64,000 nucleotides of DNA from Pseudomonas sp. P8_229 (GTDB lineage: Bacteria; Pseudomonadota; Gammaproteobacteria; Pseudomonadales; Pseudomonadaceae), in NCBI RefSeq assembly GCF_034008635.1, contig NZ_CP125378.1:5642501-5706500 (forward strand), read 5' to 3'. A program made the position numbers and the translations under genes. Shown one piece after another: positions 11,950 through 57,349 of the stretch (position 1 is its first letter; each line of letters opens with the position of its first letter). The notes beneath the pieces are model-generated. The model saw only the letters and a list, made by a program, of their open reading frames with translations, ran no database searches and was not told the origin of the DNA.

Positions 11950-11966
11950 TTGAGTTCCTTGGTTCG

Positions 11967-13380: not shown

Positions 13381-13696
13381 CTCAGGCTACATATCCTTGC
13401 GCCTTTGCCTACAGCTACGCCAGAATCCGCCGGCTTGTGCGCCTTGGGGGCGAGTTCTATTGTGGTGCGGTCGCTGACGAATCAGCGATCGGATTTGACC
13501 GTCCGCCCAACATCAAGGCGCGCCAGCGTTCTGCACGTGTTCAGGCATTGTCTGAAATCATGTCGCGGTGGCTGTGCGTGGGACACCTTCGGGTGTGCCG
13601 GAGTCCTTGATGTCCGGTCGGTCAACCCGCGTACAGCTGCCACCCTGTTTGTTTGACCGCGAACGGTGGCGGCTCCAGTCATCAAGGAGCTTCACC

Positions 13697-14056: not shown

Positions 14057-14102
14057 TGCGGGTGTCGGGATCACCTGGTGATTGATCGGGTGTTCATTCT
14101 GG

Positions 14103-14183
14103 CGCCTTCGCGAGCAGGCTCGCTCCCACAGGGTTTTATGCTGATGGCAGATGTTGTGTGCGACGCTGAAACCTGTGGGAGCA
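14103..14183. repeat. REP doublet, second arm truncated
   Basis: cttcgcgagcaggctcgctc followed about 40 bases later by an inverted cctgtgggagcag that breaks off. It is downstream of the DUF6124 gene, and its first arm is duplicated at 18973-19001. Confidence 0.75.
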
Positions 14184-14213
14184 GTTGATTATTACCGTGC
14201 CATCCTCGTGTGG

Positions 14214-14603: not shown

Positions 14604-14848
14604 TTGATCGTTCCTATAGCCGCTTTTTAGCTCGACAATGGTGATTTCTTCTGCCTGGCTTCTCATAATCCCCCGGCATCGCCAGCGAAAGATAATCCTA
14701 TACGATTAAGTCGGTGGAGCATGGTTTGACGAGGGGTATTCAGGGTTTCCCAATGCCTTTACTATCGGCGCCCCTCACAAATGTCACGGTCAAAACAGCT
14801 TGATACAAAACCGAGCAGGCCAAAGGAAATGGAAAGCAAGAGTAAGTT

Positions 14849-16831: not shown

Positions 16832-17502
16832 TGGGATTGCTCGGGAACTTTACATATCCGACCGATGATAATGATTTGAAATGGCTGAAGGTGCCTTACG
16901 GACAACTAACATTCAATGTCGAGGGGAACGACTTTGAAGATGCTGGACATCCTGCTCATCGCTATTTCAGCCGAGTCGTGCACTGGCCAGAAGGTGTGTC
17001 AGGCGTGACGATTGGTCGAGGATACGACTTGGGTCAACAGGCTGATCCAAGGGCGGACTTAATTAATGCCGGAGTAAAAGAGCCTCTCTTGTCGTGGTTG
17101 GTTGGGGCGAAAGGCTTGCATGGTCAAGCCGCAAAAACATATTTAGATAATGCGAGCCAAGAAATCAGAAAACATGTAATAACAAGAAAGCAGCAATATA
17201 TGTTATTCATATCTGTTTATGAGTTCATGAAAAAAGACATTTTTAGGATTTCGGGCACAACCAGCAACGTAGAGAAATATGGTGCCTTGCAATGGGAAGG
17301 TGTTAATAAAAAAATTCAAGACGTCATTGTAGATCTTCGATATCGAGGAGACTATCACGTGGAATCCAGAAAATTCATTCAAAGGCCTTTTACTGATAAT
17401 GATCTGGCGAAAATAAAAGTAGAAATGTCGAAGCATAGTAATTGGGTAGGTGTGCCACCAAATAGGTTCGCCGAAAGAAAAAGTTACTTGGAGAGTAATT
17501 AA
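16759..17502 (+). CDS. Peptidoglycan-hydrolase toxin, C-terminal part (pesticin/T4-lysozyme-like)
   Basis: 247 residues in the -1 frame, continuous with the preceding gene (joined product 884 residues). There is no good start of its own (only a TTG at 16771 without a ribosome site), so it is the other half of one gene. The motif GVTIGRGYDLGQQ, preceded by HWPEGVSG, is the active-site region of pesticin-like muramidases. The rest is helical and ends in RFAERKSYLESN. Together with the M23-like domain this would make a two-activity cell-wall toxin. The stop overlaps the start of the immunity candidate by one base (TAATG). Confidence 0.65.
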   Translation, partial: RIEKLSWWKNAGLSTDGKAWHFHLMGLLGNFTYPTDDNDLKWLKVPYGQLTFNVEGNDFEDAGHPAHRYFSRVVHWPEGVSGVTIGRGYDLGQQADPRADLINAGVKEPLLSWLVGAKGLHGQAAKTYLDNASQEIRKHVITRKQQYMLFISVYEFMKKDIFRISGTTSNVEKYGALQWEGVNKKIQDVIVDLRYRGDYHVESRKFIQRPFTDNDLAKIKVEMSKHSNWVGVPPNRFAERKSYLESN

Positions 17503-17918
17503 TGCGTATTTTACGTCTGGCAGCGTACACGGTTTTTGGACTGGCCTGTCTTTCATCTGCGACAGCGGCTGAGTTTGACTACAAACGGGTCTACCAAGCA
17601 GATGCAGGGAAAATAGGTAAATATATCGTCAGGTATTTGAGGACATTCGATTCCCCGTGCATACGGGTGCAATCGCTCTTGCCTGGGGGTAATGGGAAAA
17701 TAGTTAAGGAAAAAGAGCTTTGCTCCATTGACGGCAAAAGCTTTCTCGACGGATACACCCAAGTCGAATTGAAAAAAGGAGAGTTTCAGGAAGAGAAGCT
17801 GACTTTCTTGTTTGAGATAATGCCACTTGAGCCAGCACCTGAGTTTTTAAAAAAATGTACTGTTCCATTTAAGGATGGCGCGCCTCAGGATCTTGTTTGT
17901 GAAACGATAACGCCGTGA
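17502..17918 (+). CDS. Periplasmic immunity-protein candidate
   Basis: 138 residues, start overlapping the toxin stop (TAATG), so translationally coupled to it. A signal peptide (MRILRLAAYTVFGLACLSSATAA) sends it to the periplasm, where a peptidoglycan-cleaving toxin would act. The mature part has four cysteines (SPCIRV, ELCSID, KKCTVPF, LVCETI) and is mostly beta with charged loops. No known family recognised. Position, compartment and coupling all fit an immunity protein for the preceding hydrolase; binding is not demonstrated by sequence. Confidence 0.65.
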   Translation: MRILRLAAYTVFGLACLSSATAAEFDYKRVYQADAGKIGKYIVRYLRTFDSPCIRVQSLLPGGNGKIVKEKELCSIDGKSFLDGYTQVELKKGEFQEEKLTFLFEIMPLEPAPEFLKKCTVPFKDGAPQDLVCETITP

Positions 17919-17940
17919 GTTGAAAGCTCTGGAGGAAAAG

Positions 17941-17975
17941 GGGACGAATTTATTTTTGAAAAATAGATCCGTCCC
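17941..17975 (+). terminator. Hairpin 3' of the toxin-immunity pair
   Basis: gggacgaatttatttttgaa and aaatagatccgtccc pair over about 15 bases with two G-T or mismatch positions. It lacks a following T-run, so it may be a processing or attenuation structure rather than a classical terminator. Confidence 0.45.
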
Positions 17976-18043
17976 ATCTGCCGCACAGGTGGATGTCCAT
18001 CTAACGGTGCAACCTTTGACGGGGGCACCGTATCAAGATCTGC

Positions 18044-18526
18044 CTAGTCGCCCAAATCAACGGCATGACCGCTAGCCCGGACATAATAATTATCGAATTC
18101 ACCGCTTTCGACGAACACGAAGCCATGGCGAGTGTAAAAGCGATTTGAAGCGCTTTCCTTGAGAGCACCCACCTTGATGGGACGCCCGACCTCATCTGCC
18201 TCTCTGAACATCCGAGTAAGCACTTCAGAGCCGATTCCTGCTCCTTGAGCACTGGGTATCACATACAAGTGGTCAAGCAGGAGCTCGCTCTGCTGGTCTT
18301 TGATTACGACAAAACCGACCAGATCACCTGATACTTCTATGCGGCGTGTGCTGTTAGCGTCGAACCCAGCAATAAATCGTTCGCGCGCGCGATCCGGGTT
18401 AAATCGTCCAAGCCGTTCAAGGCTCTCGCGCATGGCCTCAATCCTGATGGTTACCAGATCTTCCAGGTCGTTACTGGAAGCTGCGCATAAAACGACAGCG
18501 GAGTTTTGATCAGCGGAGGCTGGCAT
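18044..18526 (-). CDS. GNAT-family N-acetyltransferase
   Basis: 160 residues from the ATG at 18524-18526; MFRV at 18544 is an alternative. The acetyl-CoA binding motif A is clear: LDHLYVIPSAQGAGIGSEVL, with QGAGIG at 94-99. Motif B is NRFYTRHGFVFVESGEF. GNATs transfer acetyl groups from acetyl-CoA to amines; the acceptor (small molecule, protein or antibiotic) cannot be told. It lies on the opposite strand to the toxin pair, convergent with it, inside the accessory block between the duplicated DUF6124 modules. Confidence 0.82.
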   Translation of the reverse strand: MPASADQNSAVVLCAASSNDLEDLVTIRIEAMRESLERLGRFNPDRARERFIAGFDANSTRRIEVSGDLVGFVVIKDQQSELLLDHLYVIPSAQGAGIGSEVLTRMFREADEVGRPIKVGALKESASNRFYTRHGFVFVESGEFDNYYVRASGHAVDLGD

Positions 18527-18663
18527 AACAGGCACCCTAAACATGGCCGGTCGGTGATTATAGAGAACAGAATCCGCATAACCACTACTGCCTCGTTTCA
18601 GGTGAGGCGATGGCTCCTTGTTAGCTTCAGGGGGATGTGTTCGCCGGACGCTTACGTCTGTTG

Positions 18664-18750
18664 AGGCAAGGGGACGGATCTGTGGTGGGGGTCGAGACGC
18701 AATGAAGATTCCGATAGATGCCAATGGTTAAAAAGACATCTCCCGACTCA
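18664..18750. repeat. Direct repeat 'ggacggatctg ... ttaaaaagacatctcc', copy 2
   Basis: A diverged copy of 13291-13380 in the same orientation. Here it joins directly to the DUF6124 remnant, whereas in copy 1 about 375 bases intervene. Confidence 0.6.
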
Positions 18751-18926
18751 AAAAAATACCACGAAGCCGCCAGCGAAATGCTCGCTTCGGCCAAGACCAT
18801 TGCGTAGAACGTCACCGGTCTGTTGCCGGCGTCGTAGCGTCGGGCGTGTTGGGGGTTGCGCAGTTGATCATGCTTGGGGATTTGGCGGTGAATCGGGCGT
18901 TGGATAATTTGCAGTTGCCGGAGTGA
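18724..18926 (+). pseudogene. DUF6124 gene remnant
   Basis: This aligns to the intact gene at 13697-14056: aaactccacgaagccgcc corresponds to aaataccacgaagccgcc, and the last 140 bases are about 90% alike. It has lost the N-terminal coding part and about 115 internal bases, and carries in-frame stops (gcgtag, cgtcgtag) plus a one-base deletion in cgggcg-tgttggggg. The duplication continues 75 bases past the stop into a REP arm. Non-functional. Confidence 0.75.
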
Positions 18927-18972
18927 TGCGGGGGGCGGGATCACCGGGTGATTGAGCGGTGTTGGTTCTGGC

Positions 18973-19001
18973 GCTTTCGCGAGCAGCTCACTCCTACAGG
19001 G
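18973..19001. repeat. Single degenerate REP sequence
   Basis: tcgcgagcagctcactcctaca has lost one G relative to the family. It is the duplicate of the REP arm at 14107-14131. Confidence 0.7.
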
Positions 19002-19091
19002 GTTTTGGGTGGGGCACGGGTATTGTGTTCGGATAAGGGGGGGAGTGGTCGACCATCTCCTTTACGGGTGATGGTCGACGCATTGTGCGAA

Positions 19092-19661
19092 TTAGAAATT
19101 TGGGGTGTAGGAGAAGCCTTGCGACGCTTCGGTATCGGAGAACGGTATTACCGGCGATTTCTTGTTGAACAGGCCATTGACGACGGAGCCTGGGAACATT
19201 TCGATGGAGTTGTTGAACAGTTCGACGTTGCGGTTGTAGATGGTGATGGCCGCGCCGACGTTTTCTTGTTGTTCGGTAATTTCACGCATCATGTTGTTCG
19301 CCGATTCAGATGCTTTCAGGTCAGGGTATGCCTCGAAGGTGACGCGCAAGCCACCCATAAGCTCCCTTGAAGCGGTTTCTACTGTCGCGAGGGCATTGCC
19401 GTCCGCTCCAGCAGGCAGGCTGTGGATCGCGCTGCGCAGGCCGGCGATTTTTTCGAGGAGGCTGGACTCGAAGACCATGAAGTCTGCGAGCACTTTTTGC
19501 AGTTGGTCGAGCACCTTTGTCTTCTGGCGTTCGTACACGAGGACGTCCGACCAGGCACGTTGAACTCGGTTGTGACCGCCAACAATGCCGTTATAGATGA
19601 CGACGCCCGCTACGATGATGACTACAGCGATAACAATGGCGAGGGTGAGTGTAGTGTCCAT
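19092..19661 (-). CDS. LemA family membrane-anchored protein
   Basis: 189 residues. An N-terminal membrane helix (TLTLAIVIAVVIIVAGVVIY, residues 4-23) leads to the long antiparallel helical LemA domain (NRVQRAWSDVLVYERQKTKV ... LTRP-less, with YNRNVELFNNSIEMFPGSVV). LemA proteins are small anchored helical-bundle proteins of unclear function, often paired with TPM or DUF3137 membrane proteins. It lies 3 bases downstream of such a partner on the same strand, so the two are almost certainly one operon. Function unknown. Confidence 0.88.
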   Translation of the reverse strand: MDTTLTLAIVIAVVIIVAGVVIYNGIVGGHNRVQRAWSDVLVYERQKTKVLDQLQKVLADFMVFESSLLEKIAGLRSAIHSLPAGADGNALATVETASRELMGGLRVTFEAYPDLKASESANNMMREITEQQENVGAAITIYNRNVELFNNSIEMFPGSVVNGLFNKKSPVIPFSDTEASQGFSYTPNF

Positions 19662-19664
19662 GTC

Positions 19665-20768
19665 TTACTTCTCTTGGCGGCTTGTTAGGGGAGAGGCGGC
19701 AAAGTTGTCATCGTGCAGTTCACCGAGTGCATGGCTCCATTGGAGTGCAGACACCAGGCCCGGCAGTTCGACACCCGCAGCAATTTCTGCGTAAAACTCG
19801 TTGGGCGAAGACAGCGAGTATTGAGTACCGTAAGTGAGCAGATCGCTGTTGGCGAAGCTGAGGCAGAGTTTTCCACTGTCGGCGAACTCCAGGTTCGGAA
19901 CCTTGAGTACGTTGAATACCTTCAACAAGTGCAGCACCGTCGAAGGTTTGATGAACTTCGCACAGGTCATCTCGCTGCGCCCGGTCAAACGAAACGCTTT
20001 ATTAAAATCCGGAGACGCCGTGTCCATGCGGCTCGGATAGTCGTTTTGTGATTGCCCGTCAGTTCTGACCGATACGCCGGTGACCCACGGAAAGTCGATG
20101 ACCAGACTGTAGCGGTCGTAGTGGTCATACACCACTCGAGTCTCTGTTTTGGTGCCTCCCTTGCCGTCGTTAACAGTGGTTTTTACCTTTCGTTTGTCGA
20201 CGTAGTGCAGGCGGTGGTACTCGTAAGCGAGGTTGTGCAGCGGGCCGGTAAATACACCCTGCATCGACTGCAGCAACTCGCGGCTGTAGTTGCCCCGCCG
20301 GTAATCAGCAAATTGCGCATCCAACTTGCTGAGGGTATAGCGCGGGTCTTCTGCCAGGCGGGTCAATCCGTTGTGGAAGTAGGATGACAGGCGAGCGATT
20401 CTGCTACTGAGTGAAGGCAAACGATCAGATTTGGTCTTCATCCATGCCAGACTTCCACCGGTAGAAACGATGCCGAGCACACCAAGGATCACGGGGAACA
20501 AGTCGGGGTCAATTTGCAGACGGTAAAAAAAAGAAGCGACGGTGTAGGTGTTCGCATACTTGGGAAAGGCCACAGCGCTCGCGATCAATAGCAGGCCCGC
20601 GCCGAAAAACCACCATGCGCGTGTGAAACTGAATTTGAGCGGGCCGTTGTACGAGACGAACTCTTGGATCGTCTTCAATAGGTCGGTATTGGATTGAGCC
20701 GTGGCAAGACTGGCTTCGCTGTCAGCCAGCAACTTGTTTAATTTCGCGTTCTGCGATGTGTTGGCCAT
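19665..20768 (-). CDS. DUF3137-like membrane protein, LemA partner
   Basis: 367 residues from ATG 20766-20768. Two membrane spans (WWFFGAGLLLIASAVAFP near 51-68 and LFPVILGVLGIVSTGGSLAW near 87-106) are followed by a large soluble domain with ...TETRVVYDHYDRYSLVIDF, SPDFNKAFRLTG and LLTYGTQYSLSSPNEFY. The pattern of two helices plus a domain containing 'DP.FNK.F.V' resembles DUF3137, which is usually next to lemA, as here. The C-terminus is cytoplasmic by charge. The exact family is by eye; function unknown. Confidence 0.65.
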   Translation of the reverse strand: MANTSQNAKLNKLLADSEASLATAQSNTDLLKTIQEFVSYNGPLKFSFTRAWWFFGAGLLLIASAVAFPKYANTYTVASFFYRLQIDPDLFPVILGVLGIVSTGGSLAWMKTKSDRLPSLSSRIARLSSYFHNGLTRLAEDPRYTLSKLDAQFADYRRGNYSRELLQSMQGVFTGPLHNLAYEYHRLHYVDKRKVKTTVNDGKGGTKTETRVVYDHYDRYSLVIDFPWVTGVSVRTDGQSQNDYPSRMDTASPDFNKAFRLTGRSEMTCAKFIKPSTVLHLLKVFNVLKVPNLEFADSGKLCLSFANSDLLTYGTQYSLSSPNEFYAEIAAGVELPGLVSALQWSHALGELHDDNFAASPLTSRQEK

Positions 20769-20998
20769 GTCAGGTATCCATTGATTCAGGGATGCCTGAT
20801 GCGCGAGCAACGGCCTGGATTGAGGATTCGGCTTTGTTCATAAACTGTCAGAAATGTTGAAAAGGAGTGGACGATACCATTGTTGTGCCATCACTGCTTC
20901 TGGCGGATAGCAGGCATTGGCAATGGTCGAGCATTGCGACAGGCAATCCCCTGTTAAAGCGAAGCACATGCGCTGTTTCCGCTGCCCGAAATATTCAT

Positions 20999-21097
20999 GT
21001 AGGAGCTGCCGAAGGCTGCGATCTTTTGATTTTGCCTTTTAAAAGCCAGATCAAAAGATCGTCCGATCGCGGCCCGAGCCTGCGGCAGCTCCTACAG
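20999..21097. repeat. 'gtaggagctgccgaaggctgcgatc' palindromic repeat
   Basis: A third repeat family: gtaggagctgccgaaggctg and its inverse cgagcctgcggcagctccta flank an inner inverted gatcttttga / tcaaaagatc. It overlaps the 3' end of hxcV, supplying its stop codon. The rest of 20769-21091 has no gene I can support. Confidence 0.88.
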
Positions 21098-21466
21098 GGG
21101 GCGGGTGAGTAGGGTTTCGAGTTTTGCCAGGGGCGGCGCATCCTGGTTGCGGTCGAATACCTGGATGCCGATTTTTAGCAATCGACCATGCTCAGCCGCT
21201 GCGATCAGCTGTTCACAGCGCAGCAACAATCGCCCCTGATCACAATCCTGCACTTTCATCCCCATCGGCAACCTGCCTTCCAACCGCAACTCCGCCATCC
21301 GACTCTGCGCCGCAATCAGCGCCACCGAGCGATCCCGCAAAATCCCGCTGCTCTGCGTCATCAACCCCGCCACGCGCACAGCCGCCGACATCGCCACGGC
21401 AATAATCGCCAGCGCCACCAGCACTTCAATCAGGGTGAAACCTGCTTCTCGCGAACGCGCACGCAT
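21092..21466 (-). CDS. hxcV: Type II secretion minor pseudopilin GspI (HxcV)
   Basis: 124 residues. The leader MRARSREAG precedes the prepilin N-terminus FTLIEVLVALAIIAVAMSAAV with Glu5. GspI nucleates the pseudopilus tip with GspJ and GspK. The mid part (ALIAAQSRMAELRLEGRLP) is the usual GspI helix-strand segment. The gene ends inside a 'gtaggagctgcc' palindrome: the last codons and the TAG stop (21092-21094) come from the repeat, so the natural C-terminus may have been replaced. It is divergent from hxcT, as in P. aeruginosa (PA0680/PA0681), but is separated from hxcP by the 11-kb insert. Confidence 0.87.
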   Translation of the reverse strand: MRARSREAGFTLIEVLVALAIIAVAMSAAVRVAGLMTQSSGILRDRSVALIAAQSRMAELRLEGRLPMGMKVQDCDQGRLLLRCEQLIAAAEHGRLLKIGIQVFDRNQDAPPLAKLETLLTRPL

Positions 21467-21613
21467 AAACGGCCCAAAGCCAAAACCCAGCCCTCGACGC
21501 TAACCCGCGTGCTTGACGGCTTGACGACGAAAACACCCGAGGATTTTCAACATCACTGACATATCTTCTTGCAACACTGCGCGTCGAATCGAATCAAGCC
21601 AGGGTATGTCGAG

Positions 21614-22072
21614 ATGGATATCGCACCTTTCAAATCGCTTCAGCAACCGATGCGCGCGCCGCGTGGGCAGCAAGGTTTTACCCTGATCGAGATCATGGTG
21701 GTGGTGGTGATTCTGGGGATTTTGGCGGCGATGGTGGTGCCCAAGGTGCTCGACCGGCCGGATCAGGCGCGGGCGACCGCGGCGAAGCAGGATATTGGTG
21801 GGTTGATGCAGGCGTTGAAGTTGTATCGCCTCGATCACGGCACTTACCCGAGCATGAACCAGGGGTTGAAGGTGTTGGTGGAGCGGCCGGCGGATGCGAA
21901 GAACAGCAATTGGCGCTCGTACCTTGAGCGTTTGCCGAACGATCCGTGGGGGCGTCCTTATCAGTACCTCAACCCCGGCGCCAACGGTGAGATCGACATC
22001 TTTTCCCTCGGTGCCGACGGTCAGCCTGACGGCGACGGCGTGAATGCCGATATCGGTTCCTGGCAGTTGTAA
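21614..22072 (+). CDS. hxcT: Type II secretion major pseudopilin GspG (HxcT)
   Basis: 152 residues from ATG 21614 (AGGG 9 bases upstream), giving a rather long leader of about 22 residues before FTLIEIMVVVVILGILAAMV; ATG 21650 would give a shorter leader. Family marks are VPKVLDRPDQARATAAKQDI, the DPWGRPYQYLNPG loop, and the C-terminal DGQPDGDGVNADIGSW calcium-binding segment. GspG forms the shaft of the pseudopilus. It is the first gene of a long plus-strand operon running to hxcS and is divergent from hxcV. Confidence 0.92.
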   Translation: MDIAPFKSLQQPMRAPRGQQGFTLIEIMVVVVILGILAAMVVPKVLDRPDQARATAAKQDIGGLMQALKLYRLDHGTYPSMNQGLKVLVERPADAKNSNWRSYLERLPNDPWGRPYQYLNPGANGEIDIFSLGADGQPDGDGVNADIGSWQL

Positions 22073-49382: not shown

Positions 49383-49582
49383 AGTGGGAGGGGGCTTGCT
49401 CCCGAAGGGGCCGGCATTGCTGGCATTTCCATCGCCTGACACGCCGCCTTCGGGAGCAAGCCCCCTCCCACAGAGGATCTGTATTCCAGGCAGTTGCTGC
49501 ACATTGCTGCAAGGTAACAAGACACACAGTGGACCTCTGATACACCATAAAACCCATGTGGGAGTGGGCTTGCTCCCAGGGA
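49383..49582. repeat. REP-variant array, 'gtgggagggggcttgctccc' subtype (three units)
   Basis: An inverted pair, gtgggagggggcttgctccc and gggagcaagccccctcccac (49383-49474), is followed by a single unit, atgtgggagtgggcttgctc (49556-49582). This subtype differs from the 'gcgagc' REPs elsewhere. It fills most of the gap 49356-49688; the remainder carries the operator-like repeats before the GntR gene. Confidence 0.85.
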
Positions 49583-49635: not shown

Positions 49636-49683
49636 GTCATAACGTCTCTAAGATCACGTCATAACTCGTTATAACAAGTGATC
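49636..49683 (+). promoter_or_regulatory. Candidate operator of the GntR regulator
   Basis: GTCATAAC occurs at 49636 and 49658 and GTTATAAC at 49668. The last two lie in an imperfect palindrome bounded by GATCAC (49652) and GTGATC (49678), ending 6 bases before the GntR start codon. The pattern suits autoregulation; not a recognised consensus. Confidence 0.5.
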
Positions 49684-49688
49684 CCGTG

Positions 49689-50441
49689 ATGACCGATAAC
49701 GTTCTCTCCCTGAGCAGTGTTCCATTGCACACCCAACTGCGCGACGTCCTGCGCGCCCGCATTCTCGACGGCGAATACCCGCAAGACAGCCAGATGCCCT
49801 CCGAAAGCGAACTCGGCGCGCTGTTCAAAGTCAGCCGCATCACCGTGCGCCAGGCACTGGGCGATCTGCAGAAAGAAGGCTTGATCTTCAAGATCCACGG
49901 CAAGGGCACCTTCGTCGCCAAGCCGAAAACCTTCCAGAACGTCAGCAGCCTGCAAGGCCTCGCCGAGTCCATGACCGGGCGGGGCTACGAGGTAATCAAC
50001 CGCCTGCGCAGCTTCAAATTCATCCCCGCCGACAAACGTGTGGCCGAGCGCCTGCAAGTGGCTGAAGGCGAGACCGTGGCGCAGATCAAGCGCGTACGGC
50101 TGATCAACCGCGAGCCGATTTCGCTGGAAATCACCTACCTGCCCAAAGCCATCGGCGAGCGGCTGGAGAAGGCCGATCTGGTCACCCGCGACATTTTCCT
50201 GATCCTGGAAAACGACTGCGGCATCGCCCTCGGCCACGCGGATCTGGCGATCGATGCGGTACTCGCCGACAGCGACCTGACCCAGGCGCTGAACGTCGAG
50301 GCCGGCTCGCCGATCATGCGCATCGAACGCCTGACCCACGACGCCAACGGCCAGCCACTGGACTTCGAACACCTTTACTACCGTGGCGATGCGTTCCAGT
50401 ACCGCCTGCGGATCGACCGGCAAAAAGGGGAGCAGGCATGA
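49689..50441 (+). CDS. GntR-family (HutC subfamily) transcriptional regulator
   Basis: 250 residues from ATG 49689. The winged helix is at about 10-75 (MPSESELGALFKVSRITVRQ ... IHGKGTFVAKP), followed by a UTRA/HutC effector domain (about 95-240; ERLQVAEGETVAQIKRVRLI, RIERLTHDANGQPLDFEHLY). HutC members respond to small ligands and commonly control the adjoining uptake or catabolic operon. Its stop overlaps the flavoprotein start (ATGA), so it is the first gene of the operon and probably autoregulated through the repeats just upstream. Confidence 0.9.
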   Translation: MTDNVLSLSSVPLHTQLRDVLRARILDGEYPQDSQMPSESELGALFKVSRITVRQALGDLQKEGLIFKIHGKGTFVAKPKTFQNVSSLQGLAESMTGRGYEVINRLRSFKFIPADKRVAERLQVAEGETVAQIKRVRLINREPISLEITYLPKAIGERLEKADLVTRDIFLILENDCGIALGHADLAIDAVLADSDLTQALNVEAGSPIMRIERLTHDANGQPLDFEHLYYRGDAFQYRLRIDRQKGEQA

Positions 50442-52168
50442 CGCGCAGCACGTTGGAACAGGAATACGACATCGTCGTGATCGGCGGCGGCACGGCCGGC
50501 CCGATGGCGGCGATCAAGGCCAAAGAGCAGAACCGCGACTTGCGCGTGCTGCTGGTGGACAAGGCCAACGTCAAGCGCAGTGGCGCGATCAGCATGGGCA
50601 TGGACGGCCTGAACAACGCGATCATCCCCGGGCATTCGACGCCTGAGCAGTACACCAAGGAAATCACCATCGCCAACGACGGCATCGTCAATCAAGCGGC
50701 CGTCTACGCCTATGCGACGCACAGTTTCGAAACCATCGAACAACTGGACCGCTGGGGTGTGAAGTTCGAGAAGGACGAAACCGGTGATTACGCTGTGAAA
50801 AAGGTCCACCACATGGGCGCCTACGTGCTGCCGATGCCGGAAGGGCACGACATCAAGAAGGTGCTTTACCGTCAGTTGAAACGTGCGCGGGTGAGCATCA
50901 CCAATCGGCTTGTCTGCAGCCGTTTGCTGACCGACGAGGAGGGCGCCGTCAACGGTGTGATGGGCTTCGATTGCCGCACCGCTGATTTCCACGTGATCAA
51001 GGCCAAGGCGGTGATCCTGGCCTGTGGCGCGGCCGGTCGCCTGGGTCTGCCGTCCTCCGGCTACCTGATGGGCACCTACGAAAACCCGACCAATGCCGGC
51101 GACGGCTACGCGATGGCGTATCACGCCGGGGCCGAGCTGGCGAACCTCGAATGCTTCCAGATCAACCCGTTGATCAAGGATTACAACGGCCCTGCCTGCG
51201 CCTACGTCACCGGTCCGTTGGGCGGCTACACCGCCAACAACAAGGGCGAACGCTTCATCGAGTGCGATTACTGGAGCGGGCAGATGATGTGGGAGTTCCA
51301 TCAGGAACTGGAAAGCGGCAACGGCCCGGTGTTCCTCAAACTTGATCACCTGGCCGAGGAAACCATCCAGAACATCGAGGAGATTCTGCACAGCAACGAA
51401 CGCCCGAGTCGCGGCCAGTTCCACGCCAATCGTGGCACCGATTACCGCACGCAGATGGTCGAGATGCACATCTCGGAGATCGGTTTTTGCAGCGGCCACT
51501 CGGCGTCCGGGGTGTGGGTCAACGAGCGTGCCGAGACGTCGGTGAAAGGCTTGTACTCGGCGGGCGACATGGCTGCGGTGCCGCATAACTACATGCTCGG
51601 CGCGTTCACCTACGGCTGGTTTGCCGGGCACAACGCGGCGGAATTTGTCGCCGGGCGCGAGTTTTCCGCGCTCGACGCGGGGCAGATCGAAAAGGAAAAG
51701 GCCCGGGTCTACGCACCGCTGGACCGCAAACACGGCCTGCCGCCAGCGCAGGTCGAGTACAAGCTGCGGCGCTTCGTCAACGACTACCTGCAGCCGCCAA
51801 AAGTGACCAGAAAAATGCAGATCGGCCTGCAGCGCTTCAGCGACATCGAGCGCGACCTTGAGCAGATGAAAGCCAGCAACGCCCACGAACTGATGCGTGC
51901 GATGGAAACCAGCGTGATCCGCGACTGCGCCGAAATGGCCGCGCGTGCCTCGCTGTTCCGTGCCGAAAGCCGCTGGGGCTTGTACCACTACCGGGTCGAT
52001 CACCCGCAGCGCAACGACAGCGAATGGTTCTGCCACTGCCATCTGAAGAAGGGTGAAGACGGCCAGATGACCAGTTTCAAGAAACCCGTCGAGCCTTACA
52101 TCATCCCGCTCGATGCTGAAGAAATGCAGGCTTACGACCGCTTGCGGGTGGGCGCTTTCGCCGCTTGA
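50438..52168 (+). CDS. AprA/fumarate-reductase-like flavoprotein
   Basis: 576 residues. An FAD Rossmann motif is at 13-25 (VVIGGGTAGPMAA), the second FAD region is KAVILACGAAGRLG, and the C-terminal FAD segment is GLYSAGDMAAVPHNYMLGAF. Overall it resembles the alpha subunit of APS reductase and the fumarate reductase/succinate dehydrogenase flavoprotein superfamily. The next gene is an AprB-like ferredoxin, so the pair is an AprAB-type oxidoreductase. Aerobic pseudomonads do not use dissimilatory APS reductase, so another substrate is likely, perhaps one imported by the ABC system downstream. The C-terminus has an unusual CHCHLKKGEDG motif. Confidence 0.8.
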   Translation: MTRSTLEQEYDIVVIGGGTAGPMAAIKAKEQNRDLRVLLVDKANVKRSGAISMGMDGLNNAIIPGHSTPEQYTKEITIANDGIVNQAAVYAYATHSFETIEQLDRWGVKFEKDETGDYAVKKVHHMGAYVLPMPEGHDIKKVLYRQLKRARVSITNRLVCSRLLTDEEGAVNGVMGFDCRTADFHVIKAKAVILACGAAGRLGLPSSGYLMGTYENPTNAGDGYAMAYHAGAELANLECFQINPLIKDYNGPACAYVTGPLGGYTANNKGERFIECDYWSGQMMWEFHQELESGNGPVFLKLDHLAEETIQNIEEILHSNERPSRGQFHANRGTDYRTQMVEMHISEIGFCSGHSASGVWVNERAETSVKGLYSAGDMAAVPHNYMLGAFTYGWFAGHNAAEFVAGREFSALDAGQIEKEKARVYAPLDRKHGLPPAQVEYKLRRFVNDYLQPPKVTRKMQIGLQRFSDIERDLEQMKASNAHELMRAMETSVIRDCAEMAARASLFRAESRWGLYHYRVDHPQRNDSEWFCHCHLKKGEDGQMTSFKKPVEPYIIPLDAEEMQAYDRLRVGAFAA

Positions 52169-52195
52169 TACATCAATCATCAGAGAGCCCGAACC

Positions 52196-52441
52196 ATGGC
52201 CTATCAAGCCCAGGAAATTTTTTTCCGCTCCAACGCCCCGGTCACCGTGGACGAGGACAAATGCATCGCCGAAAAGGGCTGCACCGTGTGTGTCGACGTC
52301 TGCCCGATGGACTTGCTGGCGATCAATCCGGCGACGCAGAAGGCTTATATGGCGTTCGACGAATGCTGGTACTGCATGCCGTGCGAGAAGGATTGCCCGA
52401 CCGGCGCCGTCAAAGTCGACATCCCCTATCTCCTGCGTTGA
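52196..52441 (+). CDS. AprB-like 2[4Fe-4S] ferredoxin
   Basis: 81 residues. Two cluster motifs: C23, C29, C32, C36-P and C57, C60, C63, C67-P. The ECWYCMPCEKDCPTGAV segment and the loop between motifs resemble the APS reductase beta subunit, but the protein lacks the long C-terminal tail that wraps AprA. It would pass electrons to or from the flavin of the preceding subunit. It lies 27 bases after the flavoprotein; a cluster of three REP units follows before the transporter genes. Confidence 0.87.
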   Translation: MAYQAQEIFFRSNAPVTVDEDKCIAEKGCTVCVDVCPMDLLAINPATQKAYMAFDECWYCMPCEKDCPTGAVKVDIPYLLR

Positions 52442-52451
52442 AACCCGATCC

Positions 52452-52612
52452 ACTGTGGGAGCGAGCCTGCTCGCGAATGCGGTGATCCAGCTAGCACATC
52501 GACACCTGACACACCGCTTTCGCGAGCAGGCTCGCTCCCACAGTGGATCGAGTTACTGCACAAATTGAATACGCCAGAAATCCTGTGGGAGCGAGCTTGC
52601 TCGCGAAGAGGC
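52452..52612. repeat. REP cluster of three units
   Basis: Units at 52452, about 52519 (inverted) and 52582, all of the gtgggagcgagc..gctcgcgaa type. They lie between the ferredoxin and binding-protein genes, so if the region is one operon they could set relative mRNA levels. Confidence 0.88.
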
Positions 52613-52739
52613 CACCCCAGACAACCCAAAGCCATCCGGAAACCCCGGACGCTGGATTCACCGAAAACCCCTCGTTTCCCACCGTGCCCTGATCGCGGCG
52701 GAGACGAACATCCAATAAATGATTCGAGGGGAAACAACC

Positions 52740-54143
52740 ATGTTACGTGCAGCAATCGCCGGTCTGGTACTGGCTTCATTGACCTTGTCGGCCTCGGCCG
52801 AAACCATCCGCATCGCCATCGGCACCCAGGACACCACCATCAACTGCGCCGCTGGCGGGCTGTTGATTCGTGAACTCGGTCTGCTCGACAAATACCTGCC
52901 CCACGATGGCGCCTACAAAGACGCGAAATACGACGTGCAGTGGAAAAACTTCACCAGTGGCGCGCCGCTGACCAACGAAATGGTCGCCGGCAAACTCGAC
53001 TTTGGCGCCATGGCCGATTTCCCCGGGGCGTTCAACGGTGTCGCGTTCGAGACTGCCGGCAAGCACAGCCTGTTTATCAGCGTGCTGTCGGGCAGCATCA
53101 AGGGCAGCGGCAACGGCATCGTCGTGCCGAGCGCGTCGGGCGTACAGTCGCTGAGCGAGCTCAAGGGCAAGACCATCTCGGTGCCATTCGCTTCGACGGC
53201 CCACGGCATGTTGCTGCGTGCCGTGGCCGAGCAGGGCTGGGACCCGCTCAAGGATGTGAACATCATCGCCCAGCCGCCGGAGGTTGCCGGCTCGGCGTTG
53301 CAGGCCGGCAAGATCGACGCCCACGCCGATTTCGTGCCGTTCGCCGAGCTGTTCCCGAGCCGTGGCTTCGCCCGCAAGATCTACGATGGCGCCCAGGCCA
53401 ACGCACCGACCTTCCACGGCGCACTGGTCGATCAGGCCTACGCGAAACAGTACCCGGAAATCGTCGTCGCCTATCTACGGGCGAGCATCGAGGCCAATCA
53501 GTTACTGGCCGCCGAGCCTGAGAAGTACAGCGAGTTGATCGCCAAAGTCACCGGCGTCGATGCCGAGGTCAATTACCTGTTCCACGGCCCGCTCGGCGTG
53601 CAGACCCGCGACCTGAGCTGGAAGCCGGAATACCGCCAGGCGGTGGGCACCGCGATCGACACCCTGAAGTTGCTGAAGAAGGCTGATCGCGGCCTCGACC
53701 TGAATACCTTCATCGACGATCAGTACATCCGCGCCGCCTTCAAGGCCTCGAATCTGGACTACACCGCGCAACTCGCCAACTACGCGCAGACCCCACTGAA
53801 GGCCACGGATGCCGCGACTGGCAAAGCCATCACTGACTTCAGCCACGTCGCCGAAATCTGGGTGCGCGGCGAAGACAAGGTGCGCCAATACGCCTCCGCC
53901 GAATCGGCCTTCACCGCGCTCGCCGCGCTGAAGCAGGAAGGCAAAAACATCCGCGCGGTGTATGCGCAGGCCAGTGACAGCGGGATCAAGCTGCTCGCCG
54001 ATCAGGCGTGGTTTGCCAGCGATGCAAAAGGGCGCCTGAGTGCCTTCCTGCTCAAGGGCCAGGCCCAGCAATTTGCCTCGACACAGGGTGGCAAGGTTTT
54101 CGATTTCACTGATGCCACTGCCCAAGCCGTCGCTGCCCGCTAA
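52740..54143 (+). CDS. ABC transporter substrate-binding protein, sulfonate/nitrate type
   Basis: 467 residues from ATG 52740 (GAGGGG upstream). Signal peptide MLRAAIAGLVLASLTLSASA. It has the NMT1/SsuA-like fold: IRIAIGTQDTTINCAAGGLL, DFGAMADFPGAF, LKGKTISVPFASTAHGMLLR, KIDAHADFVPFAELFPSRGF. It is about 120 residues longer than typical SsuA/TauA; the extra C-terminal part (after about 340) has no match I know. It supplies the ligand to the permease and ATPase encoded downstream. The ligand is unknown; taurine, sulfonates, nitrate-like anions or thiamine precursors are all possible for this fold. Confidence 0.83.
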   Translation: MLRAAIAGLVLASLTLSASAETIRIAIGTQDTTINCAAGGLLIRELGLLDKYLPHDGAYKDAKYDVQWKNFTSGAPLTNEMVAGKLDFGAMADFPGAFNGVAFETAGKHSLFISVLSGSIKGSGNGIVVPSASGVQSLSELKGKTISVPFASTAHGMLLRAVAEQGWDPLKDVNIIAQPPEVAGSALQAGKIDAHADFVPFAELFPSRGFARKIYDGAQANAPTFHGALVDQAYAKQYPEIVVAYLRASIEANQLLAAEPEKYSELIAKVTGVDAEVNYLFHGPLGVQTRDLSWKPEYRQAVGTAIDTLKLLKKADRGLDLNTFIDDQYIRAAFKASNLDYTAQLANYAQTPLKATDAATGKAITDFSHVAEIWVRGEDKVRQYASAESAFTALAALKQEGKNIRAVYAQASDSGIKLLADQAWFASDAKGRLSAFLLKGQAQQFASTQGGKVFDFTDATAQAVAAR

Positions 54144-54157
54144 TTGAAGATCAAAAG

Positions 54158-54320
54158 CCCCTCACCCTAGCCCTCTCCCAGAGGGAGAGGGGACTGACCG
54201 CGGTGTTTGGACTAGCTACGCCGACCTGAAATACCGAGCCGAACGCAGGTTCTGAAAAGCACGAATATCGGCTCCCTTTCCCCCTCGCCCCCTTGGGGGA
54301 GAGGGCTGGGGTGAGGGGGT
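54158..54320. repeat. 'ccctcaccctagccctctccc' palindromic repeat, copy 2
   Basis: Arms cccctcaccctagccctctc and gagggctggggtgagggggt (complementary) bracket about 120 bases between the binding-protein and permease genes. Same family as 47229-47400. Confidence 0.85.
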
Positions 54321-54363
54321 AAATCTCAGCCATCACACAGATCCAGAACTGGAAACCCGCTCG

Positions 54364-55143
54364 ATGAAAACACCCATCCGCTGGACATCAAGAGCCGCCT
54401 CCCTGCTGCTCTGCCTGCTGTTCTGGCAACTCGCCGCCAGCCACCACTGGAACCTTGGCCTGATCACCTTCGCCAACGTGCCCACCCCATTGGCCGTAGT
54501 CGAAGCGGCGTTGGGCCTGGGCGATTCCGGCAAGCTGCTGCAGCACCTGAGCGCCAGCCTCGGCCGCGTGTTCGCCGGTTACCTCGCGGCATTGCTCATC
54601 GGCATTGCTTTGGGCCTGGCCATCGGCCGCTCGAAATGGGCCGAAGACCTGCTGCTGCCACCGCTGGAAGTGCTGCGGCCGATCCCGGCGGTGGCGTGGA
54701 TTCCGCTGGCGATCCTGATGTTTCCCTCGTCGGAACTGTCGATGGTGTTCATCACCTTCACCGGCGCGCTGTTCCCGATCCTGCTCAACACCGTGCACGG
54801 CGTCGAAGGCGTCGATCCACGCCTGATCGCCTCGGCGAAAAGCCTTGGGGCAGGGCGTCGGGCGATCTTGCTCGAAGTGATTTTGCCGGGGGCTGCGCCG
54901 AGCATCATCACTGGCCTCGCCATCGGCATGGGTACTTCATGGTTTTGTCTGGTCACCGCCGAGATGATCTCCGGCCAGTTCGGCATCGGCTACTACACGT
55001 GGGAGTCCTACACCATTCAGAACTACGCCGACATCGTCGTCGGCATGCTGCTGATCGGCGTGCTGGGCATGGGCAGCAGCCTGTTGATCAAGCGGCTGGG
55101 CGGGCTGTTCACGCCTTGGCACCGACCACGAGGAAAAGCCTGA
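54364..55143 (+). CDS. ABC transporter permease (SsuC/TauC-like)
   Basis: 259 residues with six predicted membrane helices. The BPD_transp_1 domain shows RVFAGYLAALLIGIALGLAI, the LRPIPAVAWIPLAILMF segment of this subfamily, and the EAA loop SAKSLGAGRRAILLEVILPG. It forms the inner-membrane pore with the preceding binding protein and the ATPase encoded next, whose start overlaps its stop (TGATG). The first helix begins after a short basic tail. Confidence 0.9.
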   Translation: MKTPIRWTSRAASLLLCLLFWQLAASHHWNLGLITFANVPTPLAVVEAALGLGDSGKLLQHLSASLGRVFAGYLAALLIGIALGLAIGRSKWAEDLLLPPLEVLRPIPAVAWIPLAILMFPSSELSMVFITFTGALFPILLNTVHGVEGVDPRLIASAKSLGAGRRAILLEVILPGAAPSIITGLAIGMGTSWFCLVTAEMISGQFGIGYYTWESYTIQNYADIVVGMLLIGVLGMGSSLLIKRLGGLFTPWHRPRGKA

Positions 55144-55991
55144 TGAGCGCGATGCAAACCCCGGAAGGGCGGATCGATATTTGCCAGTTGTCGATCGTTC
55201 TCGGCGAAGGCCAACACGTTTTTGAAGCCGTGCAAGGTCTGGATTGCCAGATCGAACCGGGCCAGTTCGTGTGCATTCTCGGCCCGTCCGGTTGCGGCAA
55301 GTCGACCTTGCTCGGTGCACTGGCCGGGCACTTGAGCGTCCACACCGGTAGCCTGAAAGTGGATGGTGGCGAGGTCTCCGGGCCGTCGCCGCAACGCGGC
55401 ATGGTGTTCCAGCATCACACGCTGTTCCCGTGGCGCACGGTGCGCGACAACGTCGCCTTCGGCCTGAAGATGCGCGGCATCGGTAAGGCTGAGCGGCATC
55501 GCGCCGCTGACGACATCCTCAGACTGGTGGGCCTCGACGGCTTTGCCGAACGCTGGCCCGATCAACTGTCCGGCGGCATGCAGCAGCGGGTGGAGATCGC
55601 CCGGGTGCTGGTCAACCGTCCGCGCCTGTTGCTGATGGACGAACCGTTCGGCGCACTGGATGCCTTGACCCGCCTGAACATGCAGGAACTGCTGCTGGAC
55701 ATCTGGACACGGATTCGCACCACGGTGGTGTTCGTCACCCACGACATCGACGAGGCGCTGTTCCTCGCCGACCGCTTGCTGGTGATGAGCGCGCGACCGG
55801 GGCGAATCATCGAAGACCTGCGCCTGGACTTCCCGCGTCCGCGCACCACTGAGCTGGTCACCAGCCCCCAATTCTCGCAGCTGAAGCGCCATTGCCTCGA
55901 CCTGCTGCGCCACGACAACGACCGACCGCTGCCGCGCCTTAACCCGCTCGGCCTGCCTCCCGAAAACCCCTTGCCGCGATTTGCCCTATGA
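55143..55991 (+). CDS. ABC transporter ATP-binding protein (SsuB/TauB-like)
   Basis: 282 residues. Walker A GPSGCGKST is at 47-55, Q-loop FQHHTLFPW at 89-97, signature LSGGMQQ at 142-148, Walker B LLLMDEP at 162-168, and the H-loop is FVTHDIDEA. It energises uptake by the permease encoded just before. The C-terminal 25 residues are Pro-rich (NPLGLPPENPLPRFAL). The stop overlaps the HEAT-repeat gene (ATGA), so importer and HEAT protein are translated together. Confidence 0.93.
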   Translation: MSAMQTPEGRIDICQLSIVLGEGQHVFEAVQGLDCQIEPGQFVCILGPSGCGKSTLLGALAGHLSVHTGSLKVDGGEVSGPSPQRGMVFQHHTLFPWRTVRDNVAFGLKMRGIGKAERHRAADDILRLVGLDGFAERWPDQLSGGMQQRVEIARVLVNRPRLLLMDEPFGALDALTRLNMQELLLDIWTRIRTTVVFVTHDIDEALFLADRLLVMSARPGRIIEDLRLDFPRPRTTELVTSPQFSQLKRHCLDLLRHDNDRPLPRLNPLGLPPENPLPRFAL

Positions 55992-56950
55992 CCTCTATTT
56001 TTGCTGTGACCGATAACGATGAAATCCTCGCCCTGCAACCGCGCCTGACCGCCGACGATGCCGGCGTGCGGCGCATTGCGCTGATTGATCTGGCGGATCT
56101 GGAAGAGCCCGATGGCTTGCTCTGGCTGGTTGATCGCCTCGGCCAGGATCCTGCCGAAGAAGTCCGCGCTGAAGCTGCGCGGTTGCTGGAGGCCTGGGAA
56201 GATGAACCCGTTGTTCAAGCCCTGTGCGAAGCGCTGACTGATCCATCGTCGGCCGTGCAATCGGCGGCCGCGCAAAGCCTTAGCCTGCTCAAGAGCGAAG
56301 CCGCAGGCCGGGTGATTCTGCCGTGGACCGGGCACACCGAAGTCAGTGTGCGGATCGCCGCATTCCGCGCCTTGCGCGAATTGCGTTTCGCTGACGCCGC
56401 GCCGGCTGCTGTCGCGGCACTCGACGATGCCGACGCCAACGTACGCCGCGAAGCCGTCGGCGTGCTTGGCTGGCTCAAGCAGCTCGATGCGTTGCCGGCA
56501 TTGGCCCGGTTGGCCAGCGATGATCCGGACACCGAAGTGCGCCGCGCCGCCACCGGCGCTCTCGGTCTGGCATCCGGCGCTGAAGTGCTGCCGGCGCTGC
56601 GTCAGGCCTTGCAGGACAACGCCTGGCAAGTGCGCGAAGAAGCCGCGACTACTTTGGGTAAAGTCGGCCACACCGACGCCGGTCCGGCGTTGATCGAAGC
56701 CTTGAGCGATGACTACTGGCAAGTGCGCCTGCGCGCCACCCGCAGCCTCGGTCGCCTACGTTTTGCGCCGGCCCTGGACGCCCTGATCGAGACCCTCGGC
56801 CATCGCATCAGCAACCTGCGCAAGGAAGCCGCGCTGGCCCTCGGTGAACTGAATGATCGCGGCGCAATAGCAGCGTTGCAGGCAGTGCAGGATGACGGCG
56901 ACCCGGAAGTGCGCAAAGCGGTGCGGATTGCCTTGAGTCAGTTGCAATGA
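55988..56950 (+). CDS. HEAT-repeat (PBS-lyase type) protein
   Basis: 320 residues consisting of about nine to ten HEAT repeats of about 31 residues from residue 15 to the end, e.g. DANVRREAVGVLGWLKQLDA, DTEVRRAATGALGLASGAEV, AWQVREEAATTLGKVGHTDA. There are no cysteines and no signal peptide, so it is a cytoplasmic scaffold. HEAT proteins of this type assist cofactor attachment (phycobilin lyases) or accompany Fe-S enzymes. Its place between the transporter and a DUF971 protein suggests a maturation or assembly role for the AprAB-like enzyme; this is inference from context. Confidence 0.85.
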   Translation: MTSIFAVTDNDEILALQPRLTADDAGVRRIALIDLADLEEPDGLLWLVDRLGQDPAEEVRAEAARLLEAWEDEPVVQALCEALTDPSSAVQSAAAQSLSLLKSEAAGRVILPWTGHTEVSVRIAAFRALRELRFADAAPAAVAALDDADANVRREAVGVLGWLKQLDALPALARLASDDPDTEVRRAATGALGLASGAEVLPALRQALQDNAWQVREEAATTLGKVGHTDAGPALIEALSDDYWQVRLRATRSLGRLRFAPALDALIETLGHRISNLRKEAALALGELNDRGAIAALQAVQDDGDPEVRKAVRIALSQLQ

Positions 56951-57225
56951 ATCCGCTGTCAGTGGGTAATTCGCAGAGCACTCAGACGCTGCGCCTGAGC
57001 TGGCCGGATGGGCGCGAGCAGCAGCTCAACCACGCCGAACTGCGCCGCCAGTGCCCGTGCTCGCAATGCCGCGCGTTTCGCCTGCGCGGCTCGACCCCAT
57101 TGGTCGACGATCGTGTCCGCGTGATCGAACTCAACCCGCAGGGTTATGGCGTGCAACTGATCTTCAGCGACGGCCACCAACACGGGATCTACCCGTGGGA
57201 CTATCTGGCAAACCTCACCCCTTGA
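56947..57225 (+). CDS. DUF971 domain protein
   Basis: 92 residues, one DUF971 domain: LRLSWPDGREQQLNHAELRR, the metal-binding CPCSQCR (C36, C38, C41), and the C-terminal GIYPWDYLANL. The same domain is the N-terminal module of gamma-butyrobetaine hydroxylases and occurs alone or fused to Fe-S cluster carriers of the Mrp/ApbC type. It is the last gene of the operon and overlaps the HEAT gene (ATGA). A link to Fe-S or metal supply for the flavoprotein-ferredoxin pair is plausible but unproven. Confidence 0.87.
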   Translation: MNPLSVGNSQSTQTLRLSWPDGREQQLNHAELRRQCPCSQCRAFRLRGSTPLVDDRVRVIELNPQGYGVQLIFSDGHQHGIYPWDYLANLTP

Positions 57226-57242: not shown

Positions 57243-57338
57243 ATGTGGGAGCGGGCTTGCTCGCGAAGGCGGTGGGGCAGTCAAAATCGATGTCGACTGA
57301 TCCACCGCATTCGCGAGCAAGCCCGCTCCCACAGGGGA
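57243..57338. repeat. REP doublet (REPIN) at the convergent gap
   Basis: tgtgggagcgggcttgctcg and an inverted cgagcaagcccgctcccaca flank about 50 bases between the DUF971 gene and the convergent porin gene. Confidence 0.9.
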
Positions 57339-57349
57339 ACAGTGTTTTT

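Follow-up and report, generated by a model that had tools for sequence, protein, structure and literature searches.

An operon of Pseudomonas sp. P8_229 that combines an APS/PAPS-reductase-like flavoprotein and ferredoxin with a putative sulfonate-type importer

A 64,000-nt stretch of the genome of Pseudomonas sp. P8_229 (NZ_CP125378.1), hereafter the window, whose own numbering supplies the coordinates below, carries eight + strand genes (49686-57225) that form an operon according to open reading frame, Pfam and NCBIfam checks. They encode a GntR regulator, a flavoprotein (Fp), a small ferredoxin (Fd), the three components of an ATP-binding cassette (ABC) transporter, a HEAT-repeat protein and a DUF971 protein. 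Fp and Fd resemble the subunits of reductases for adenosine 5'-phosphosulfate (APS) and 3'-phosphoadenosine 5'-phosphosulfate (PAPS). Genes overlap at four junctions (GntR/Fp, 50438-50441; permease/ATPase, 55143; ATPase/HEAT, 55988-55991; HEAT/DUF971, 56947-56950), confirming the single direction and four overlaps described in an initial annotation, whose start at 49636 falls upstream of the first gene (49686). The features are as follows.

49661..49682, no strand: candidate GntR operator, a palindrome ATAACTCGTTAT followed by an imperfect second copy ATAACAAGTGAT (motif position and conservation)
49686..50441, + strand: GntR/UTRA transcriptional regulator with a GTG start, ATG 49689 being an alternative (Pfam GntR and UTRA)
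50438..52168, + strand: Fp, a flavin adenine dinucleotide (FAD) flavoprotein of 576 aa, APS/PAPS-reductase-alpha-like (NCBIfam NF006131/PRK08275)
52196..52441, + strand: Fd, an AprB-like 2x[4Fe-4S] ferredoxin of 81 aa with the CWYC tryptophan present (Pfam Fer4)
52740..54143, + strand: periplasmic substrate-binding protein of 467 aa, SsuA/TauA-like but longer (SsuA_fam score, PDB matches)
54364..55143, + strand: putative ABC importer permease, BPD_transp_1, NtrB/SsuC/TauC-like (Pfam, NCBIfam)
55143..55991, + strand: putative ABC importer ATPase of 282 aa, TauB/NtrCD-like (Pfam, NCBIfam)
55988..56950, + strand: HEAT-repeat protein (Pfam HEAT_2)
56947..57225, + strand: DUF971 / GBBH-like_N protein of 92 aa (Pfam PF06155)

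Translation of the binding protein probably starts at ATG 52740, preceded by a GAGGGG stretch, although the longest open reading frame begins at 52719.

The conservation of this gene set was examined in two collections of loci (L numbers denote loci, G numbers genomes). For Pseudomonas, one genome per species was scanned and 80 loci were kept of 591 stretches encoding a relative, all titled Pseudomonas; the complete eight-gene set occurs in the same order in 74 of them. Four of the six incomplete loci (L018, L037, L044, L062) stop at a contig edge, L069 has no GntR above the threshold that we set, and L093 is without ABC genes. At this last locus (Pseudomonas sp. UFMG81, 9077-13413), GntR, Fp, Fd, HEAT and DUF971 remain as an enzyme core without an importer. 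The second collection comprises 29 loci from gamma-, beta- and alphaproteobacteria, Acidithiobacillus and two cyanobacterial plasmids, only three of them from the genus of the window; L175, the unlinked ABC of G065, was excluded from its counts. Neighbours were detected by querying with single sequences, some of which came from these loci themselves, at score thresholds that we set; part of the recurring neighbour clusters was annotated, and the cyanobacterial context consists of the two plasmids and a protein list. Fp, Fd and HEAT occur together at 29/29 loci (two cyanobacterial), a related binding protein at 26/29 and DUF971 at 22/29, with a further weak match in L119. The regulator is GntR at 13 loci, Crp/Fnr at 11 and a large LysR-type protein at two. 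Gene order varies among the groups; thus the gene set is kept and the order is not.

Among 299 Pseudomonadota genomes, Fp (E <= 1e-100) was found in 15 and the binding protein (E <= 1e-40) in the identical 15, both thresholds being our choice. The chance figure of ~1e-25, which assumes independent genomes, overstates the strength of this coincidence, as the genomes are related (8 genera). In G065 the two genes are 2.9 Mb apart, and linkage alone therefore cannot explain their co-occurrence. Together with the full operons of Pseudomonas and the constant Fp-Fd-HEAT trio, these counts answer in the affirmative the co-occurrence check that the initial annotation had proposed.

Individual loci showed further features. 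The cluster of L009 (Acidithiobacillus caldus pTcM1, 6361-17551) resides on a mobilizable plasmid and is accompanied by an OprD-type porin. In L169 (Methylobacterium radiotolerans pMRAD01), qatC and qatD (2751-4798), annotated as part of a Qat anti-phage system, precede the cluster by a few kb. Adjacent to the operon of L007 (Cupriavidus pinatubonensis, 16263-21620), the opposite strand encodes an NtaA/DmoA-family FMN monooxygenase, an acyl-CoA-dehydrogenase-like protein and a second NrtA/SsuA-type ABC set, an arrangement resembling a desulfonation cluster.

Fp passes the cut-off of NF006131/PRK08275 (1134.8 bits, cut-off 587) and scores below those of the aprA model TIGR02061 (199.4 bits, cut-off 641.75) and of NF005331 (294.7 bits, cut-off 557), the model for proteins like the PAPS reductase of Methanothermococcus thermolithotrophicus (MtPAPSR). 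By sequence and fold comparison, MtPAPSR and then AprA are its closest solved relatives, which supports the AprAB-like pair of the initial annotation. The phylogeny against AprA that the annotation had called for places Fp outside the AprA/PAPS reductase clade, a split that rests on long branches; unity of the Fp family is weakly supported (48/67). Six near-copies (L030, L048, L081, L112, L125 and L126) were left out of this tree. AlphaFold gave a first model of Fp with a predicted local distance difference test (pLDDT) score of 54.9 and a second at 80.0, with loops 244-251 and 321-331 below 50; the alignment behind the second held 36 PAPSR-like rows and may bias it toward that fold.

The predicted active site combines retained and replaced residues. 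We take R265, R317, His398 and Asn74 of AprA to be functional sites. In the R265 column (A. fulgidus numbering), 37/37 Fp-family rows have Leu245, whereas Arg is found in 7/7 AprA, in MtPAPSR and in 36/36 aligned PAPSR-like rows, these 36 being drawn from 120 listed proteins. Loss of a second pocket arginine is less sure: column 283 is Met in the Fp family (27/27 and 37/37 rows in two alignments) and Arg in 36/36 PAPSR-like rows in one alignment, and the AprA R317 column is ambiguous, as MAFFT separates it in two alignments and in another the PAPSR Arg lands on M283. Unlike AprA and MtPAPSR, the Fp family has H124, R322 and R325 (37/37 rows), while N59, K247, D248 and H354 are retained relative to both (37/37); H354 and N59, equivalent to AprA His398 and Asn74, also occupy 63/63 rows of a further alignment. 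Of the SdhA sites, the RSH motif, whose His presumably binds FAD covalently, is RSG in Fp (G49, 37/37), and the column of what we take to be the catalytic Arg is Gln (Q282) in 36/37 rows. The AprA W234 column is changed as well, and the Q145 column is His in nearly all Fp-family rows; one 30-row alignment used for these two columns included a wrong open reading frame for L122, which was replaced for the tree. Q145 has been described as a specificity residue of AprA (PMC10322725). The Leu, Gln and RSG replacements show that Fp is not a fumarate or succinate enzyme. Judged by the pocket, it is probably no APS or PAPS reductase either, but on the flavin side and in the electron path it resembles the latter enzymes.

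The pocket bears directly on a possible role as the APS or PAPS reductase of sulfate assimilation, for which one could cite the nearest homologues and at least one listed family member (P0002) that is named adenylylsulfate reductase subunit alpha at source. Besides the Leu and His in the R265 and Q145 columns, such a role is countered by the presence in 16/16 carrier genomes of PF01507 proteins, which we take to be the family of CysH and CysD. At least two copies were found in 15/16 carriers, and a single match in G036 (2.5 Mb). Replacement of CysH by Fp was rejected on these grounds, and we regard a sulfate-assimilation role as very improbable. The initial annotation had remarked that an aerobic Pseudomonas assimilates sulfate with a different APS/PAPS reductase, and the operon is indeed probably not needed for that purpose.

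AprB and PAPS-reductase beta are among the PDB matches of Fd. Its CW[YF]C tryptophan motif is kept in 29/29 loci and, by our own matching, would hold the motif position of beta-subunit Trp42, which has been proposed to act in electron transfer (PMC10322725). In our judgement it is likely that Fp and Fd form one redox enzyme. The 898-position model NF010374/PRK13800 extends over both Fp and HEAT, matching the window Fp at its front (874 bits) and the window HEAT protein at its end (82 bits); this implies a link between the two, and the HEAT protein is a probable partner of Fp. A fused gene was not found, as 0/150 Pseudomonadota genomes reach the NF010374 cut-off. Apparent fusions in G049, G065 and G148 were rejected: the match is spread over separate frames with stops between them. 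As for DUF971, 17/22 proteins keep the cysteines of the CxCxxC motif, and the remaining five, all alphaproteobacterial (L010, L118, L170, L171 and L173), are without them and still carry the DGHxRGIYPW end. Because the motif is missing in 5/22, metal or Fe-S maturation by DUF971 is not secure. Mrp/NBP35 accompanies Fp at 3/29 loci, namely L124 and both cyanobacteria, in which no DUF971 was detected. The cofactor or Fe-S maturation role earlier suggested for the tail genes is consistent with these Mrp/NBP35 carriers.

The transporter genes encode a complete set of binding protein, BPD_transp_1 permease and importer-type ATPase, and an exporter domain architecture was not found. The binding protein has four PDB matches, each of which either binds taurine or sulfonates or is titled nitrate transport protein. 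These matches and the permease and ATPase families support the sulfonate-type importer of the initial annotation. With the direction of transport read from the protein families, the transporter very likely imports an anion.

The initial annotation had taken the pathway to be undescribed. An A. baumannii orthologue was, however, studied genetically by Corral et al. 2026 (PMC13104710): AUO97_RS16340-16365 of strain ATCC 17978 (A1S_1717-1722), termed the 'GntR-ABC efflux system' and made up of GntR, a 'fumarate reductase/succinate dehydrogenase', a 4Fe-4S protein, a binding protein, a permease and an ATPase. The available part of that paper reports co-transcription, GntR binding to a 241-bp region, and permease expression reduced two- to fourfold when GntR is mutated, making GntR an activator. 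Survival of H2O2 was <10% for the GntR mutant and 30% for the permease mutant, compared with ~60% for the wild type; both mutants were reported to be more drug-susceptible, and induction by H2O2 is attributed there to Juttukonda et al. 2018. Gene spacings of 241, 28, 19 and 34 bp are identical in the paper and in L008, from another A. baumannii record (CM018764.1, 9211-16422), and these four equal spacings identify the two operons as the same. Two other spacings differ between paper and L008 (Fp-Fd, 74 vs 20 bp; permease-ATPase, 16 vs 1 bp), probably through start choice. In L008, the ATPase and HEAT genes share 4 bases, and the HEAT and DUF971 genes share 17.

The peroxide and drug sensitivities of these mutants are the case for an ABC drug or peroxide efflux pump, as published. 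The name 'efflux' nevertheless conflicts with the importer families of the operon parts: the assignments given in the paper itself (COG0715, COG0600 and COG1116; PF13379, PF00528 and PF00005) are those of a periplasmic binding protein with an importer-family permease and ATPase. In addition, the six-gene unit omits HEAT and DUF971, which overlap in L008, and no transport measurement was noticed in the available text (PMC13104710). We give the pump hardly any credence.

A candidate GntR-binding site lies upstream of the regulator gene. Allowing up to one mismatch, the operator motif has four matches in the window, compared with 0.26 expected; two lie at 49661..49682 and two elsewhere. The exact pattern ATAACNNGTTAT has a single occurrence in the 6.37 Mb genome, at the operator, and the reversed-pattern control has two; the rarity of the motif therefore proves nothing, and it is position and conservation that carry the evidence. 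A AACNNGTT site is found in 77/88 upstream regions (L018, at a contig edge, was excluded), including those of L124 (TATAACTTGTTATA), L008 and L168, and among the regions printed is absent from L007, L009, L013, L072, L113 and L174. The 241-bp upstream gap of L008 contains a similar site, and it is this stretch that the GntR of the published orthologue binds in an electrophoretic mobility shift assay (PMC13104710). We conclude that 49661..49682 is a probable GntR operator. A wide GntR regulon that would hint at the substrate was considered and dropped in view of the single exact ATAACNNGTTAT (control, two); mismatched sites elsewhere are possible. A sigma-70 promoter scan of the region gave no match.

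Repeat elements are present in both larger intergenic gaps, at 52442-52739 (up to the likely binding-protein start) and 54144-54363. Repeats of the GTGGGAGCGGGCTTGCTCGC kind, which we take to be Pseudomonas REP elements, occur on both operon flanks (49383-49577 and 57244-57346) and in the gap between Fd and the binding protein (52442-52614), where they include a 43-nt inverted pair (52442-52554). A different repeat type, CCCCTCACCCTAGCCCTCTCCC with its inverse, separates the binding-protein and permease genes (54144-54363).

Neighbouring genes at other loci provide clues to the direction of electron flow. A ferredoxin-NADP reductase is encoded near Fp at 9/29 loci and an FdxA-type ferredoxin at 8/29; the L169 record names both. 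The L117 reductase has the Pfam domains, its nearest NCBIfam model being ferredoxin--NADP(+) reductase (142 bits, below the cut-off of 390), and Acidithiobacillus L009 has a 1153-aa GltD/NADPH-oxidoreductase-like protein in its place. In L124 (G036, 2263-17021), the ABC genes, GntR, Fp, Fd, HEAT, FdxA, DUF971, ferredoxin-NADP reductase, Mrp and an OprD porin form one run. These partners amount to wiring for electrons toward Fp, and the direction, left between oxidation and reduction by the initial annotation, now looks reductive, judged from partner genes at some loci.

Were Fp instead to oxidise sulfite or an organosulfur compound, with electrons leaving via Fd, ferredoxin-NADP reductase could serve, being bidirectional in principle. 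In aerobes, however, this enzyme and FdxA usually deliver electrons; the operon imports its substrate, while neighbours at some loci export sulfite or sulfate; and the chemistry of sulfite with AMP is unlikely with the R265-column Arg lost. Dissimilatory APS reductases are reported to be reversible (PMC10322725), which speaks for the oxidative direction, but we consider it improbable.

The neighbours also provide a sulfur context. YeiH (PF03601) is found near Fp at 6/29 loci, as a 'putative sulfate exporter' in L172, and TauE/SafE at 3/29. The 16 carrier genomes hold 19 YeiH copies, of which four lie <10 kb from Fp, compared with 0.07 expected. In S. americanum, the upstream region carries a TauD-family gene as well as ABC genes for sulfate and sulfonate. 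On the evidence of these neighbours alone, sulfite is the likeliest product, most loci, including the window, being without the extra genes.

This context has to be weighed against reduction of a non-sulfur anion (an unsaturated or aromatic carboxylate, or an N-oxyanion), with the sulfur neighbours incidental. In its favour, C=C reductases belong to the superfamily, the anions bound by NMT1/SsuA-like proteins are varied, and many loci are without a sulfur gene nearby. Set against this are the enrichment of YeiH, the TauE/SafE genes beside 3/29 loci, a binding protein nearest to taurine/sulfonate binders, closest enzymes that act on sulfur, and the Gln in the SdhA catalytic-Arg column. A non-sulfur substrate strikes us as unlikely.

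Oxygenase-type neighbours were observed at three annotated loci: the NtaA/DmoA monooxygenase of L007, a TauD/TfdA dioxygenase in L173 and a Rieske protein in L174. They would suit an arrangement in which Fp-Fd feeds an oxygenase encoded elsewhere and the sulfonate is removed with O2, as proposed for AsfAB. The asfRABC cluster of P. putida S-313, required for arylsulfonates, likewise encodes a flavoprotein, a ferredoxin and a sulfonate ABC transporter, asfA mutants lose arylsulfonate use (PMC4267179), and the host genome has two SsuD-type proteins over the cut-off. For comparison, AsfA and AsfB of C. metallidurans, Rmet_4334/5 (PMC2864759), were taken, by position and gene pair rather than by locus tag, to be the 549-aa and 111-aa pair at ~928-930 kb of NC_007974 in strain CH34. 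Over the part that matches, this presumed AsfA has 26% identity to Fp. It groups with SdhA/NadB, and a 100/99 split with long branches separates Fp from that side of the tree; identity of Fp with AsfA was rejected, the presumed CH34 pair being another family. Moreover, no oxygenase was seen among the recurring neighbour families annotated, the available description of the asf cluster includes neither HEAT nor DUF971 (PMC4267179), and the retained AprB electron-path tryptophan fits a catalytic flavin. An oxygenase-feeding role is likewise rather unlikely.

The reading that we tentatively favour, as a possibility rather than a firm assignment, is that the operon encodes proteins that import a sulfonate-type anion and reduce it, giving sulfite. 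In this pathway, an oxidant- or stress-inducible organosulfur acquisition system, GntR would turn on the operon via the ATAACNNGTTAT-type operator, and the SsuA/TauA-like ABC transporter would bring in a small anion that is most probably a sulfonate (R-SO3-). Fp and Fd would constitute an intracellular enzyme of the APS/PAPS reductase type, with electrons passing from NADPH through ferredoxin-NADP reductase, the FdxA-type ferredoxin, the Fd clusters and the Fd tryptophan to FAD. The reduced flavin would then cleave or reduce the substrate, yielding sulfite for CysI or for export. HEAT would act as scaffold or assembly partner of Fp, and DUF971, or Mrp instead, would aid Fe-S loading. We infer sulfonate as substrate and sulfite as product from the neighbouring genes and the family of the binding protein; the parts assigned to HEAT and DUF971 are likewise deduced.

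Expression data from other pseudomonads are compatible with this proposal. P. putida PP_0206 is presumably the Fd orthologue. Zinc raises this 'ferredoxin' 7.5-8.5-fold (PMC6066579). In P. aeruginosa, HOCl and HOSCN raise sulfur and taurine uptake genes, for which sulfur replacement has been suggested (PMC7950407); an oxidant-induced sulfur supply fits, and other protective roles fit equally.

Several observations weigh against a sulfonate reductase. Chemically, attack of the flavin on a carbon-bound sulfonate would face a poor leaving group, unlike attack on APS. The binding protein scores 125 bits against SsuA_fam, under the cut-off of 163.5. The window operon is without ferredoxin-NADP reductase and FdxA, which are absent from 20/29 and 21/29 loci, respectively. 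Sulfur genes are missing from the surroundings of many loci: 12/16 carrier genomes have no YeiH within 10 kb of Fp and 16/16 no TauE. Three of the four YeiH cases belong to one family (f54), so that all four may represent two events, and TauE/SafE is common, with 2-11 copies per genome. The three oxygenase-type neighbours fit the oxygenase-feeding alternative, and the published H2O2 phenotypes do not demonstrate sulfur acquisition. A search of the open-licence literature found no paper on the operon's substrate or enzyme and no sulfur-source phenotype, and the literature matches listed contain no precedent for reductive desulfonation.

A still bolder claim, which we hold to be doubtful, is that Fp-Fd represents a new class of enzyme. 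It would be a reductive desulfonase, aerobic yet independent of oxygen, that uses the APS/PAPS reductase scaffold with a rebuilt anion pocket, is fed by NADPH via ferredoxin and is coupled to a sulfonate importer of its own. If the reductive reading is true, sulfur could be obtained from sulfonates by a route without O2, FMNH2-monooxygenase or dioxygenase. If the desulfonase reading is true, such an activity would be spread over pseudomonads, rhizobia, Acinetobacter and cyanobacteria and could secure the sulfur supply under oxidative stress. The conservation of an operon that supplies both importer and enzyme, in bacteria of soil, plant-associated, clinical and cyanobacterial origin, marks a real gap in sulfur metabolism.

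Among known systems, MtPAPSR (8a8o) is 27-28% identical to Fp, and its Arg columns 245 and 283 (the latter in one alignment) are Leu and Met in the Fp family, which differs further by H124, R322 and R325 and by an operon with importer, GntR and HEAT. Dissimilatory AprAB is set apart by the sub-threshold aprA score of Fp, by the changed R265, Q145 and W234 columns, and by the PF01507 proteins of the carriers. Compared with SdhA/FrdA, the operon is without membrane anchor genes, and Fp has RSG rather than RSH and Gln in the catalytic-Arg column (36/37). The nearest functional precedent for the operon is asfRABC, which shares the flavoprotein, ferredoxin and sulfonate-type ABC transporter in a sulfur context; it differs in the presumed AsfB ferredoxin (CQTC, vs CWxC in Fd), in a LysR regulator and in that no HEAT or DUF971 is described. 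A. baumannii A1S_1717-1722 is orthologous, differing, in the available account (PMC13104710), in the efflux name and the omission of HEAT and DUF971. Re-read in this light, an importer and a reductase could explain its H2O2 sensitivity via sulfur or Fe-S supply instead of pumping, which shifts attention to the two enzyme genes and to the two genes, HEAT and DUF971, omitted from the published unit.

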